Of a stretch of 35,788 bases of DNA, positions 22,856-30,112 are shown piece by piece (the stretch's first letter is position 1; each line of letters begins with the position of its first letter). The stretch spans positions 1 to 35,788 of the forward strand of contig JAUIGQ010000012.1 in the NCBI GenBank assembly GCA_030429925.1. The letters run 5' to 3'. The translations under genes were made by a program, and so were the position numbers. Source of the stretch: Bacteroidia bacterium. Lineage in GTDB: Bacteria > Bacteroidota > Bacteroidia > Flavobacteriales_E > Vicingaceae. The notes beneath the pieces were generated by a model, which was not told where the DNA came from, made no database searches, and saw only the letters and a list, made by a program, of their open reading frames with translations.

Positions 22856-22954
22856 GAATCAATATTCCAGATTCATAGTTCATCAGTTTCAATAAATCTC
22901 TATTTGAGTATGTTGGGTTGATAAAAGATCACTCTTTGATGACCTTCTCTGTTC

Positions 22955-22997
22955 ATTTTCTTTTACGTGAAAAGAAAACGAACCAAAAGAAAGCACG
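22955..22997. repeat. Hairpin repeat, copy 1
   Basis: TTTTCTTTT (22956-22964) pairs with AAAAGAAAA (22970-22978), and is followed by CGAACCAAAAGAAAGCACG. Copies at 23322-23370 and 26606-26650 share the layout: T-rich arm, short loop, A-rich arm, then ACAAAAGA or CCAAAAGA. Confidence 0.6.
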
Positions 22998-23321
22998 TCT
23001 TTTTACAAGGAATTTTCATTTGAAAACGATTTAAGAAGCATGTTAAATCGTTTGTCAAAAGAAACCGCAATCCAAAAAATGGCGCTTCGCTGGGGTTTCC
23101 ATTTTTTGTCTTACTATTCTGGTGTAAAAAGAGTATCCCGCAAAGCGGGATAAGCTGGGTGGGATGAGCCATCAGCGAGCCGGCGAGAGCAATGAATGGA
23201 CAAATGCTTGGAAATTCATTAAAGGCGTTAGTCGTTGTTCCGCTGAAAGCGGAATCTACTTTAATAGAATTTCTAGCATTTGGACAGAGAGGGTGGAAGC
23301 TTTGATGGCTCTAGATTTTTT

Positions 23322-23370
23322 CCTTCTTTTTTATCATGAAAAAAGAAGGAAGACAAAAGATAAAAGAAAA
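23322..23370. repeat. Hairpin repeat, copy 2
   Basis: CCTTCTTTTTT (23322-23332) pairs with AAAAAAGAAGG (23339-23349), an 11-bp stem with loop ATCATG, followed by AAGACAAAAGATAAAAG. It has the same orientation and layout as copy 1, about 370 bases away. Confidence 0.6.
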
Positions 23371-23413
23371 TGCCTACCCTTCAGCTGACGGCTACAGAGG
23401 TAATAGAAGGAAG

Positions 23414-23486
23414 AGTAGTTTTTAAACTAAAAGCTATAGATTCAAAGTCTAGATTCCAGGTTCTAGACTCTAGAATTTAAACTACT
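23414..23486. repeat. Nested inverted repeat across the leuS stop
   Basis: The outer arms are AGTAGTTT (23414-23421) and AAACTACT (23479-23486); the inner arms are GTCTAGA (23447-23453) and TCTAGAC (23462-23468). The outer right arm overlaps the leuS stop codon. No T-run follows, so it is not a standard terminator. Confidence 0.5.
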
Positions 23487-26207: not shown

Positions 26208-26690
26208 ATGAAGACCAATCGCATGATCATATTGATCAATAAGCTTGTTGAAACAAAAGAAGAAATAGATACCGGAGGAATAAGTGCCCAGAGTTTATTT
26301 AGATCATATCAGGAATCTCAAAATTATTCTCTTAGTAGGGATGATATTTTTATTGGAGCTGATGCTCATTATAACACAGTTATAGATAGATTAGAAGAGT
26401 TTGCCTTGCTTTCTCATTTGCGCCCTGGTTGTTTGGAAGTCATGTACTATTCAAGTTTTGCTAAAATAGAAGCGTTATTCAATTCTGATTATGAAGATCA
26501 TTTACAGTTTTATGATCAATCTGCCAGTTATACCAATTTGATGAAAGTGCTGGATAAATTCCACAATCAATTTGAGTTGAAGTTCGTTCGCCCCCACTCA
26601 ACCCATTCTTTTTTCCCAAAAAGAAATGATACAGAGAACAAAAGTCATGGAATAAGTTCAACAAGTCAGGCTCAATTGCGGTTGGCATAG
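26208..26690 (+). CDS. Hypothetical protein, C-terminus encoded by a repeat
   Basis: The frame gives 160 residues with no signal peptide or membrane segment and no recognised family. The N-terminal 130 residues look protein-like and mostly helical, with aromatic and acidic residues (RPGCLEVMYYSSFAKIEALF, DYEDHLQFYDQSASYTNLMK). The last 25 or so (from SFFPKRNDTENKS) are encoded by a copy of the hairpin repeat seen at 22955 and 23322, so the original C-terminus may have been replaced. Met6 (26223) is an alternative start; a 13-codon out-of-frame ATG at 26201 overlaps the start. It could be a decaying gene. It stands between divergent leuS and the next plus-strand operon. Confidence 0.5.
   Translation: MKTNRMIILINKLVETKEEIDTGGISAQSLFRSYQESQNYSLSRDDIFIGADAHYNTVIDRLEEFALLSHLRPGCLEVMYYSSFAKIEALFNSDYEDHLQFYDQSASYTNLMKVLDKFHNQFELKFVRPHSTHSFFPKRNDTENKSHGISSTSQAQLRLA
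26606..26650. repeat. Hairpin repeat, copy 3, inside an ORF
   Basis: TTCTTTTT (26606-26613) pairs with AAAAAGAA (26618-26625) around TCCC, followed after a short gap by GAACAAAAGTC. The layout matches the copies at 22955 and 23322. It lies in the 3' end of the hypothetical gene at 26208-26690. Confidence 0.5.
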
Positions 26691-26797
26691 AAATACTCAT
26701 AAACAATGAATGATAAGAAGGATATTCAACTGACATTTGACAAGAAAAGGAGAGGAAGATTTTAGAGGTTTATATCGTTCAACATCTGATCTAGACT

Positions 26798-26827
26798 TTT
26801 GAGAAGGGCTTTCTTTCTATATCTTTA
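26798..26827 (+). promoter_or_regulatory. Weak promoter candidate for the 133-residue protein and kinase operon
   Basis: TTTG at 26798-26801 and TATCTTTA at 26820-26827, 18 bases apart, resemble the Bacteroidota promoter with one mismatch in the -7 box. The leader would be about 28 bases. Confidence 0.35.
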
Positions 26828-26860
26828 GCGGAAATCAATTATTAACTAATACAAGCTAAA

Positions 26861-27262
26861 ATGAGCAGTTGGTCAATCACCCCAAATGAAGAAAATGAAG
26901 AACCCTTAACGGTAACGGTATCAGGTCCTTCATTTGTCAAAGTAAGTGTCATTGGAATTCTAGTTGATTATGGTGATCTGATTCCTTCCATGCAATCAGA
27001 TATAGAAGAAGAATTGCCAAGTAACAATCAGCCAACAAATTCCGATCAAGTTTTAATTCAATATGTCCAAGAGGATGCTACAGGTGGCAACACTTCTGCT
27101 ATCTATTCAGGAGCTGAGGTAGCTGATGTTGTATTTGAAGAAACTACAGATTATGATTATATCTGTGTCTTATATGATATAACTGATGTAGCCAATCCGG
27201 AAATAAAGCAAGCTAAAAGGTCGAAAGGAAAGCTGCATAAACCTTCAGGTACTGATCTGTAG
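26861..27262 (+). CDS. Small acidic protein of unknown role, in the kinase operon
   Basis: The 133-residue product has no signal peptide, begins MSSWSITPNEENEEPLTVTV and is rich in Asp, Glu, Val and Thr, with strand-like stretches (VKVSVIGILVDYGDLIPSM, YDYICVLYDITDV) and a basic tail (KQAKRSKGKLHK). No family is recognised. It ends 10 bases before the histidine kinase start, so it is probably cotranscribed with the kinase and response regulator. A role as an accessory or output of that system is a guess from position only. Confidence 0.65.
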   Translation: MSSWSITPNEENEEPLTVTVSGPSFVKVSVIGILVDYGDLIPSMQSDIEEELPSNNQPTNSDQVLIQYVQEDATGGNTSAIYSGAEVADVVFEETTDYDYICVLYDITDVANPEIKQAKRSKGKLHKPSGTDL

Positions 27263-27272
27263 TAAATTCCCT

Positions 27273-29117
27273 ATGGGTATTAGATCCAGAGTTAGGCGAC
27301 TTTTTGTCAAAAAGGTCTCTATTCGTCATTTATTGGGGATAGGTCTTTTTATCTATTCATTTTCAATTCTTGGTCAAGAGAAGGATGAAGCTCTATGGCA
27401 AAAGATCTCAGACATCTATTTGGAAGCCGATGAGTTGACCTATTCAAATATGGATAGCTCTATACTTTTGCTAGATAGTGCATTTTCAATGGTAGCTCTT
27501 CCTTATGATACTTCACGTTATGCAGATATGCTAGGGCTTAAAGGGTATAATTTTCAAGTTTTAGGGCATTATGATTCTTCCATGCACTATTACCTGAAAA
27601 CCCTTCAGTTCAAGAGGCTTGTAAGGGATAGTCTTGGAATTTCTCACTCCTACATCTATATGGCCAATCTTAGCTATTTTCTAAATGACTATGATAACTG
27701 TAGATCATTTAGCAGGAAGAGTATTGAAGTTTTAAAAAGTATCCGGGCCAATGGAAGGCACTTCGCTAATTGTTACAATGTATTTGCACTAACTTATTTT
27801 GATCAGGATCAACTGGATTCGGCTCTCAAGTACTTTTTGATTGGATTATCCTATTTGGAGAATGATAGTATAGAAAGGGAAAGTGCATACACCTCTTTTT
27901 ATGACAATATAGGTCAGATCTTGGAGGAGAAAGATTTGAAAGATGAAGCTATCGCATATTATAGAAAGTCTTTGAAAATCAGCTTATCCATGGGCTGGGT
28001 TGATGATCAATTGTGGACTTATAATCGTTTGATCCAGACATTTCTTAGTGAAAGAATGCTTGATAGTGCGAGAAAATATGTCAGCTTATCACGTTCTATA
28101 TTTTCAAAGTCTGCCGATCGAGATATAAAAAAGGATATTGTTCAATCTGAAGCCATCTTTTATGGGAGTGTTCATCAATTGGACAGCATGAAGATGAAGC
28201 TAATTGAGTATTCTACACTTGCAGAAGAGCTGATTGAAGCCAGAACAAAAGCAAATATTCAAGAAATGGCTGCTAAGTATGAGCTTGAGCGAAAAGAAAG
28301 TGCACTGGCTATTGCAAAGGAGCATGCAGCTAGATTGAGACAAGAAACTAAGAACCAGAGGATATTGCTATTCTTTGCAGTGGTCGGATTAGTTGTATTG
28401 CTGCTTATTCTATTCTTCTTGAGGAAGTTCTATCATCAGAGGAGAAGAATGTCATTGATGGAATTAGAGATCAAAGACAATAAATTAGATGAATTAATGG
28501 CCTCTCAAGAGTCGAAGACCTATGCAGCAATGCTGAAGGGACAGCAGCAAGAGCGAGAGAGAATAGCAAGAGACCTGCACGATAGGCTGGGAGGAACCTT
28601 GGCTGCCTTGAAACATTCTTTAAGGAGTCCTGAGAATAAGATCAAAGAGGAGGATCTGGAGATCGTTGATCAGGCGGTGAAAGAAGTGAGGGATGTATCT
28701 CACAACCTGGCTAGCACTCAATTTGCAGATTTTGGATTGAGCGAGGCACTTGGGCAGCTTAAGTCTACCATTGAGAATGTTGGGGAAGTAAAGTTTGAGG
28801 TTTATTTGCACCCTTCAACTTCCAAGCTGGAGCAAAAGGTAACCATTGAACTATATCGAATTGTTCAAGAGCTATTGAGCAATACTCTAAAGCATGCAGA
28901 TGCCAATGAGATCTCTGTGCAAACGAATTTCACTGAGAATATCTTTAATCTGATCTATGAAGATAATGGAAGAGGTTTTGACCCCTTCAAGGTTCAGAGA
29001 GGAATGGGCTTAGACAATATGAGAGCTAGAGTGAAAAAAATTGGTGGAGTTATGAATATAGATGCAGAAATAGGAAGAGGAACTATAGTGATAATTGAAA
29101 TAAACCAAAAGTCATGA
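27273..29117 (+). CDS. TPR-containing sensor histidine kinase (HisKA_3 type)
   Basis: The 614-residue kinase has a basic N-terminus and signal-like segment (LLGIGLFIYSFSILG, about 20-34), a periplasmic sensor of tetratricopeptide repeats (about 60-300), a coiled coil, one membrane helix (about 365-387) and a cytoplasmic kinase core. The phosphorylated His is His436 in ERIARDLHDRLGGTLAALKH, the HisKA_3 box of NarL-type systems. The ATPase part shows IVQELLSNTLKHADANEIS (N box) and EDNGRGFDP and GMGLDNMRARV (G boxes). The stop codon overlaps the response regulator start by 4 bases (ATGA), so they are a translationally coupled pair. The signal sensed is unknown. Confidence 0.93.
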   Translation: MGIRSRVRRLFVKKVSIRHLLGIGLFIYSFSILGQEKDEALWQKISDIYLEADELTYSNMDSSILLLDSAFSMVALPYDTSRYADMLGLKGYNFQVLGHYDSSMHYYLKTLQFKRLVRDSLGISHSYIYMANLSYFLNDYDNCRSFSRKSIEVLKSIRANGRHFANCYNVFALTYFDQDQLDSALKYFLIGLSYLENDSIERESAYTSFYDNIGQILEEKDLKDEAIAYYRKSLKISLSMGWVDDQLWTYNRLIQTFLSERMLDSARKYVSLSRSIFSKSADRDIKKDIVQSEAIFYGSVHQLDSMKMKLIEYSTLAEELIEARTKANIQEMAAKYELERKESALAIAKEHAARLRQETKNQRILLFFAVVGLVVLLLILFFLRKFYHQRRRMSLMELEIKDNKLDELMASQESKTYAAMLKGQQQERERIARDLHDRLGGTLAALKHSLRSPENKIKEEDLEIVDQAVKEVRDVSHNLASTQFADFGLSEALGQLKSTIENVGEVKFEVYLHPSTSKLEQKVTIELYRIVQELLSNTLKHADANEISVQTNFTENIFNLIYEDNGRGFDPFKVQRGMGLDNMRARVKKIGGVMNIDAEIGRGTIVIIEINQKS

Positions 29118-29740
29118 TCAAAGTGGTAATCGTTGATGATCACAAACTATTCCGACAGGGACTAGGAGTGATGCTAGCTGCTAAAGAAGATATTGATGTA
29201 GTAGATAAGTACGAAAGTGCAGTTCAGTTGCTCAAGTTCTTGCCTCACCTTGAAGTAGATCTTATTCTCATGGATATAGATATGCCTGAAATGGATGGGA
29301 TCTCAGCACTGGCTGAGGTATATAAGTTAAAGCCTGATGTGAAGACAGCTATATTGTCAATGCATCTAAACAGTAAAAAGATACAGGAGGCAGTGGCAGC
29401 AAAGACAAATGGGTATTTACTTAAAACTTCTAGTGATGAAGAAGTTGCTGAAGCAATAAGAGAGATCATAAAAGGGAACGATTACTTTGCTAAGGAAGCA
29501 CAAGCAGAACTCATAGAAAGCTATCGGAAGCAAGATGATCCCGGATATGTTGAGCTAACTCCCAGAGAAAAGGATATTTTGAAATTAGTATGTCAAGAAC
29601 TGAATTCTCAGGAAATAGCAAAGAAGCTATTTATCTCAGTTCACACTGCAGAAACGCATAGAAGAAACTTATTAAGCAAGACGGGTTGTAAGAACTCGGT
29701 GGGTTTGGTAAAGTTTGCTATGGAAAACAATTTGATCTAA
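29114..29740 (+). CDS. NarL/LuxR-type response regulator
   Basis: The 208-residue regulator has a receiver domain (1-125) with acidic pair Asp8/Asp9, the phospho-acceptor Asp54 in LILMDIDMPEMDG and the conserved Lys in GYLLKTS. The C-terminal LuxR helix-turn-helix domain (about 146-208) shows LTPREKDILKLVCQELNSQE and ISVHTAETHRRNLLSKTG. It is the partner of the overlapping histidine kinase. The gene-free stretch next to it, with two candidate small RNAs, could include targets, but no binding site has been tested. Confidence 0.95.
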   Translation: MIKVVIVDDHKLFRQGLGVMLAAKEDIDVVDKYESAVQLLKFLPHLEVDLILMDIDMPEMDGISALAEVYKLKPDVKTAILSMHLNSKKIQEAVAAKTNGYLLKTSSDEEVAEAIREIIKGNDYFAKEAQAELIESYRKQDDPGYVELTPREKDILKLVCQELNSQEIAKKLFISVHTAETHRRNLLSKTGCKNSVGLVKFAMENNLI

Positions 29741-29815: not shown

Positions 29816-29823
29816 TATATTTG
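29816..29823 (+). promoter_or_regulatory. -7 element of small-RNA candidate A
   Basis: TATATTTG is a perfect TAnnTTTG match. The nearest TTTG upstream (29786-29789) is 26 bases away, longer than usual. Transcription would start near 29830, giving an RNA of about 120 bases ending at the terminator at 29919-29953. Confidence 0.5.
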
Positions 29824-29829
29824 TATTGC

Positions 29830-29953
29830 GAACCTTAGTAAAAGTTGAACCTAGGAGTAACCAATTACGAAGCTTGTCATCTTTGCTTTTAGCGTTTGAC
29901 ACAATTTTTACTACACCTAGCCATCTCGTTATTCGAGATGGCTTTTTCTTTTT
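29830..29953 (+). ncRNA. Small-RNA candidate A
   Basis: This non-coding stretch follows a perfect TAnnTTTG element and ends in an intrinsic terminator. AGTAAAAGTTG (29837-29847) can pair over 11 positions with CAATTTTTACT (29902-29912), with one G-U pair, closing a large domain. Inside, GTAA-ccaa-TTAC forms a small hairpin and GAAGC/GCTTT presents UUGUCAUCUUU in a loop. It shares the ordered motifs ACCTAG, AACCAAT and AGCTTGTCATCT (29871-29882) with candidate B downstream. No ORF of useful length is present. It could alternatively be a 3' UTR of the response regulator mRNA. Confidence 0.55.
29919..29953 (+). terminator. Terminator of candidate A (and possibly of the kinase operon)
   Basis: AGCCATCTCG (29919-29928) and CGAGATGGCT (29934-29943) form a perfect 10-bp stem with a 5-base loop, followed by TTTTCTTTTT. 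Confidence 0.95.
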
Positions 29954-29966
29954 AGCTATTTCATAA

Positions 29967-29986
29967 AATACTCATTTATGAGTATT
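29967..29986. promoter_or_regulatory. Perfect palindrome upstream of candidate B
   Basis: AATACTCAT (29967-29975) and ATGAGTATT (29978-29986) are perfect inverted arms separated by two T. It lies between the terminator of A and candidate B, where no TAnnTTTG box was found, and could be an operator for a dimeric regulator or an RNA hairpin. Confidence 0.45.
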
Positions 29987-29989
29987 GAC

Positions 29990-30111
29990 TTCAACTTATT
30001 GGATGAGGACTTTTATCCTGTACCTAGTGAAATATAAACCAATAGCTTGTCATCTACTGTGTATACTGGGTGTGAAACGGTTGGGGTTGTCTTAGACAAC
30101 CCCTTCTTTTT
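29990..30111 (+). ncRNA. Small-RNA candidate B
   Basis: The stretch between the terminator of A and a second intrinsic terminator carries ACCTAG (30022-30027), AACCAAT (30037-30043) and AGCTTGTCATCT (30044-30055), in the same order as candidate A. ACCTAGT (30022-30028) can pair with ACTGGGT (30065-30071), leaving the shared 12-mer in the enclosed loop. The 5' end is not defined: no TAnnTTTG element is visible, so the start given is approximate. Because the terminator at 29919-29953 should stop upstream transcription, a separate promoter is inferred. Confidence 0.5.
30083..30111 (+). terminator. Terminator of candidate B
   Basis: GGGGTTGTC (30083-30091) and GACAACCCC (30095-30103) form a 9-bp stem with loop TTA, followed by TTCTTTTT. 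There is no T-run on the other side, so it serves plus-strand transcripts only, although the neighbouring gene is on the minus strand. Confidence 0.92.
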
Positions 30112-30112
30112 G

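Follow-up and report, generated by a model that had tools for sequence, protein, structure and literature searches.

We analysed a stretch of DNA of 35,788 nucleotides (the window) from a marine Bacteroidota genome (G000), and compared it with the only other genome of the genus in the comparison (G001) and with a genome of a sister genus (G015). Two candidate small RNAs, A and B, lie in the gap between the gene for a NarL-type response regulator (RR) and engB (Table 1). In G000, engB is convergent to both, so that neither RNA leads a gene. The gene content between leuS and engB varies (window 26208–29740; L219:10804–12312): several genera carry the kinase–regulator pair, G001 has two small unrelated genes, and G002 has nothing in this interval. 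By synteny comparison, the kinase adjoins leuS in G015 and in three further genomes (G003, G006 and G008). A search for a kinase ortholog in G001 gave no match, and the leuS–engB region of this congener contains neither the kinase–regulator pair, nor the dyad described below, nor RNA B. Upstream of the kinase in the window are two open frames without a Pfam match (26208–26690, 160 aa, and 26861–27262, 133 aa). Downstream of leuS is another long gap (window 22856–23476, about 620 bases) that has no open frame of 80 aa.

Table 1. Coordinates of the kinase–regulator genes and of the RNA features in the window.
Feature	Position	Strand	Remarks
Histidine kinase with TPR sensor part, RR partner	27273..29117	+	Pfam HATPase_c, HisKA_3, TPR
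NarL/LuxR-type response regulator, candidate controller of RNA B	29114..29740	+	Pfam Response_reg, GerE
−7 element TATATTTG of RNA A	29816..29823	+	exact TAnnTTTG; block ATCGATATATTTGTATTGCGAACC identical in G001
RNA A	29828..29950	+	5′ end inferred from −7 element, 3′ end from terminator
Seed AGCUUGUCAUCU in RNA A loop	29871..29882	+	identical in G001 A and in B
Terminator of RNA A	29919..29952	+	10-pair stem, T-rich tail
Dyad AATACTCAT-TT-ATGAGTATT, candidate NarL-type 7-2-7 operator for B	29967..29986	.	sole such site in the window
RNA B	30020..30110	+	5′ end inferred from G015 dyad spacing, 3′ end from terminator; motifs common with A
Seed AGCUUGUCAUCU of RNA B	30044..30055	+	CAAUAGCUUGUCA (30040–30052) predicted to pair 13 bases with yfiR leader and start codon
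Terminator of RNA B	30083..30112	+	9–10-pair stem, T-rich tail

RNA A has the anatomy of a small RNA gene: its own predicted promoter, an intrinsic terminator, an intergenic position and no coding frame. The −7 element TATATTTG (29816–29823) is present as claimed in the first-pass annotation of this DNA, and A is predicted to use a consensus sigma-A promoter. Both terminators proposed in that annotation were also found, with stems at 29919–29943 and 30083–30103 and a T-rich tail after each; there are four terminator-like sites in 1 kb, where 0.5 would be expected. The homolog of A in G001 (contig PALM01000007.1, Flavobacteriales bacterium isolate SAT43) is 89% identical, with an unchanged loop 12-mer and the long stem kept. 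Its terminator is largely different in sequence and the same in place and form. In both genomes A folds far better than shuffled sequences (z −5.1). The predicted fold consists of two stacked helices, P1 (29836–29847 paired with 29902–29913) and P2 (29848–29860 paired with 29883–29896), with a bulge of five bases between them on the 3′ side; together they enclose a loop, over 20 bases long, that holds AACCAAU and AGCUUGUCAUCU. All 12 pairs of P1 are kept in G001 despite three two-sided compensatory changes, as judged from two sequences only. The GAAGC/GCUUU stem that had been drawn for A is absent from this fold, in which GAAGC sits in the terminal loop of the longer two-part stem. UUGUCAUC does lie in the loop region, partly within a weak four-pair mini-hairpin predicted there. 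The claim of an RNA gene gains support from the promoter, fold and separate terminator kept in the congener, from the compensatory stem changes and from a syntenic homolog in the sister genus.

An RNA of the same plan as A occupies the syntenic place in G015, between the regulator and engB. It has a P1 of nine pairs, a bulge, a P2 whose 3′ arm GCUUUUAG is conserved, and a loop of 21 bases that includes AAGCUUGUCA; it also has a terminator and keeps the seed core AGCUUGUCA. When the covariance model built from A only was run without filters, its top hit within 12 kb was this RNA (17.9 bits, E = 0.013). With strict filters, the same model (R1) was significant only in G000 and G001 among the 46 genomes of the family in the comparison, which also make up its whole sample of the order. 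A pattern scan of genome contigs gave 17 matches, of which, by inspection, only that in G001 has the context of promoter, stem and terminator. Among 20 inspected regions adjoining leuS we found no further RNA beyond that of G015, and in G003 and G006 the regulator is present with no such RNA beside it. Searches of Rfam release 15 returned nothing at gathering scores and nothing convincing below them at relaxed thresholds, in line with the earlier failure to match A or B to a known family.

RNA B shares with A the motifs ACCTAG (29849 and 30022), AACCAAT (29859 and 30037) and the 12-mer AGCTTGTCATCT (29871 and 30044), all of them where they had first been reported. Among 2000 dinucleotide shuffles, none produced a common 12-mer, and 4 attained the local alignment score observed between the two stretches. 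The ACCUAGU/ACUGGGU stem proposed for B is present in its predicted fold. B keeps the loop motifs and lacks the long stem P1; its fold is weaker than that of A (z −2.4), and it has no consensus −7 element, as had been noted before. A weak GACTTTTA occupies the −7 place if B starts near 30020, a position set by assuming the dyad-to-start spacing of G015. The covariance model of A gives B a weak score (9.9 bits, E 0.38). The case for descent of B from A is therefore made by its loop motifs and its position.

The first-pass annotation had missed a regulator-type dyad between A and B, and with it the link to the adjoining RR. This perfect dyad, AATACTCAT-TT-ATGAGTATT, lies between the terminator of A and RNA B, about 43 nt upstream of the inferred start of B. 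The NarL heptamer consensus is TACYYMT, and the inner 16 bases of the dyad, TACTCAT-TT-ATGAGTA, fit TACYYMT-NN-AKRRGTA with no mismatch and in a 7-2-7 arrangement. NarL and NarP bind inverted heptamers arranged in this way (PMC2718512). A dyad with the same outer sequence, AATACTTA-N4-TAAGTATT, precedes the G015 RNA, whose start, as judged from a near-consensus −7 element, lies about 43 bases further on; this copy of the dyad departs from the NarL consensus at the inner heptamer ends. The strict form does not recur in a further 800 kb of sequence from G000 and G001, and A has no NarL-type dyad, the site being beside B only. From the NarL-type dyad, the NarL/LuxR-type neighbour, the G015 counterpart and the joint absence of kinase, dyad and B in G001, we infer that B is probably switched by the adjoining RR through the candidate operator at 29967–29986.

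A search of coding start regions for the complement of the seed, as the first-pass annotation had suggested, gave sites at the starts of yfiR and of an adhesin gene in both species. The complementary 9-mer TGACAAGCT has 39 occurrences in G000 and 24 in G001, RNA genes included. It starts within 18 positions around the start codon of three genes per genome, against 0.23 and 0.30 expected, and two of the three, yfiR and the SprB-repeat adhesin gene, are orthologous between G000 and G001 and unlinked to the RNA locus. That both species have such sites beside the starts of the same orthologs strongly supports the earlier idea of the loop as a possible seed.

The periplasmic signalling gene yfiR encodes a YfiR/HmsC-like protein of the DUF4154 family. 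It is the first in a row of genes that also includes those for a TPR protein and a HAMP-SpoIIE phosphatase. Its TTG start was fixed by comparison across the family. Other genera share the promoter block AAAAGTTTATTACTTTTA, but the seed site was seen in G000 and G001 only; since the start is close behind this block, the leader is probably very short. Homologs of yfiR from several genera (L160–L170) have a conserved non-AUG start, TTG or GTG, close behind AAAAGTTTATTACTTTTA. The adhesin, a giant surface protein (1863 residues in G001), carries SprB repeats together with a type IX secretion signal of the CHU_C kind. Its site lies directly before the ATG in both species, within diverged surrounding sequence. 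The G015 counterparts of yfiR and the adhesin gene have no seed-complement sites, and the G015 proteins are at least as similar to those of G000 as are those of G001 (79% vs 71% and 78% vs 77%). In a third orthologous gene, DUF4175-like, the position of the sites differs between the two species. A LEA-like lipoprotein gene (G000) and a DUF3109 gene (G001) were rejected as targets because their orthologs lack the site, and the gene for an MKTLSTFLL protein (G001 C3:13502) was set aside with no clear ortholog in G000. In the 14% of the G015 genome that was searched, we found no convincing target. One intergenic TGACAAGCT lies just before a terminator-like GCGGACATGATGTCCGC hairpin in G001 (L154:1470–1560, C30); it might act as a sponge or decoy for RNA A, or be a chance match.

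Ranked by predicted pairing energy, yfiR comes out top for B in G000 (−22.9 kcal/mol; 402 start regions sampled) and top for A in G001 (−21.1 kcal/mol; 366 sampled). The stretches for this sample were selected so as to contain yfiR and the adhesin gene, both found by searching for the seed complement. B is predicted to form 13 contiguous Watson–Crick pairs with the yfiR leader through the UUG start codon. A of G001 forms 13 contiguous pairs with its own yfiR leader, or 14 counting one G–U pair. For A of G000, yfiR ranks only 11th, with nine bases paired. The yfiR leader of G001 would likewise form 13 pairs with B, so that these data leave species-specific matching unproven.

These observations suggest a mechanism in which A and B each present AGCUUGUCAUCU in a terminal loop that would base-pair with mRNAs carrying TGACAAGCT beside the start codon. 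Translation in Bacteroidota starts without a Shine–Dalgarno sequence and is tuned by mRNA structure and by bases near the start codon (PMC6847099), so that a duplex in this region should block initiation. A would be transcribed from its consensus sigma-A promoter, and B would be switched by the adjoining NarL-type RR via the dyad. The anatomy of the RNA genes, their conservation, their fold and their complementarity to start regions come directly from computation; from these we infer expression of both RNAs, pairing in the cell and repression as the outcome. As a whole, we consider it likely that A and B are sibling trans-acting sRNAs that block translation initiation at start codons, with B under control of the RR. 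They would probably switch off yfiR and the adhesin gene, of which yfiR appears to be the best-supported target and the SprB-repeat, type IX-secreted adhesin the next. More tentatively, and with somewhat less than even confidence, we propose that the two-component system steers the YfiR–SpoIIE operon and a gliding-type adhesin via a dedicated pair of sibling sRNAs at its own locus, one copy having a consensus promoter and the other, whose seed matches the yfiR leader through the UUG, being controlled by the regulator.

Alternatively, A and B could be real sRNAs whose matches at start codons are due to chance or shared ancestry, the loop binding a protein or other RNAs. The target sites are common to two sister species only, and in 5 of 57 sampled ortholog pairs the two members have a run of at least nine bases in common just upstream of the start, a background of about 9%. 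Shuffled seeds over the sampled start regions gave an enrichment that is suggestive only (p 0.06–0.15), and the lack of a convincing target in 14% of the G015 genome agrees with this explanation. We nevertheless regard it as unlikely: two orthologous genes are matched in both genomes where about 0.02–0.03 would be expected (0.23 × ~9%), the 13-base pairings top the sampled ranking in both species, and the sites are absent in genomes without A or B. That A or B should be a cis-acting leader, an attenuator or a short coding gene is far less probable still. A gene does follow on the same strand in G001, but the convergent engB of G000 led us to reject a leader role, and a one-base indel in the conserved loop between A of G000 and G001 shifts every frame and breaks any reading frame that they could share.

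The sibling arrangement itself could be doubted if only A were functional and B were a copy in decay, or belonged to the 3′ untranslated region or terminator of the RR transcript. The missing long stem, the missing consensus −7 element, the weaker fold, the low score with the A model and the absence of B from G001 all point in this direction. Against this, the loop 12-mer is fully kept in B while the remainder diverged, B has its own strong terminator, the dyad upstream of it is matched in G015, and B provides the best yfiR pairing in G000. We therefore think it rather improbable that A acts alone, and retain the reading of two trans-acting siblings.

Two related RNAs in tandem, with a common seed and separate terminators, recall OmrA/OmrB of E. 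coli, which likewise are tandem siblings with a common seed that differ elsewhere (PMC4211561). The Omr pair is under two-component control and acts on surface proteins, curli and motility regulators (PMC4211561), comparable to the adhesin target and the candidate RR link described here. Both Omr RNAs are regulator-controlled, whereas here only B appears linked to a regulator. Omr pairing is Hfq-dependent and resides in a conserved terminal sequence, unlike the seed of A/B in its stem-closed loop, and the Rfam searches indicate no sequence relation. GibS of Bacteroides thetaiotaomicron is a Bacteroidota sRNA that, like A/B, pairs over target start codons, with in vitro support, but its seed is an unstructured 5′ end and its targets are metabolic (PMC7366714). 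Rfp18 of Flavobacterium psychrophilum is a structured sRNA in which one stem–loop pairs with predicted targets including secreted proteases and an adhesin; the available part of its account, which places it in the genus Flavobacterium, mentions no sibling pair or linked regulator (PMC9723704). A/B would be a new sRNA family of an already known kind.

For the A/B family there are now a predicted fold, a homolog in syntenic position in another genus, a candidate regulator and predicted start-codon targets defined to the base, so that each step can be tested directly. To our knowledge, few Bacteroidota sRNAs with identified targets have been described. If true, the proposed mechanism would show how an environmental sensor could be coupled, at the level of translation, to surface adhesins and a YfiR-type pathway. 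It would form a circuit from regulator via sRNA to surface adhesion, in a phylum where few sRNA targets have been characterised.
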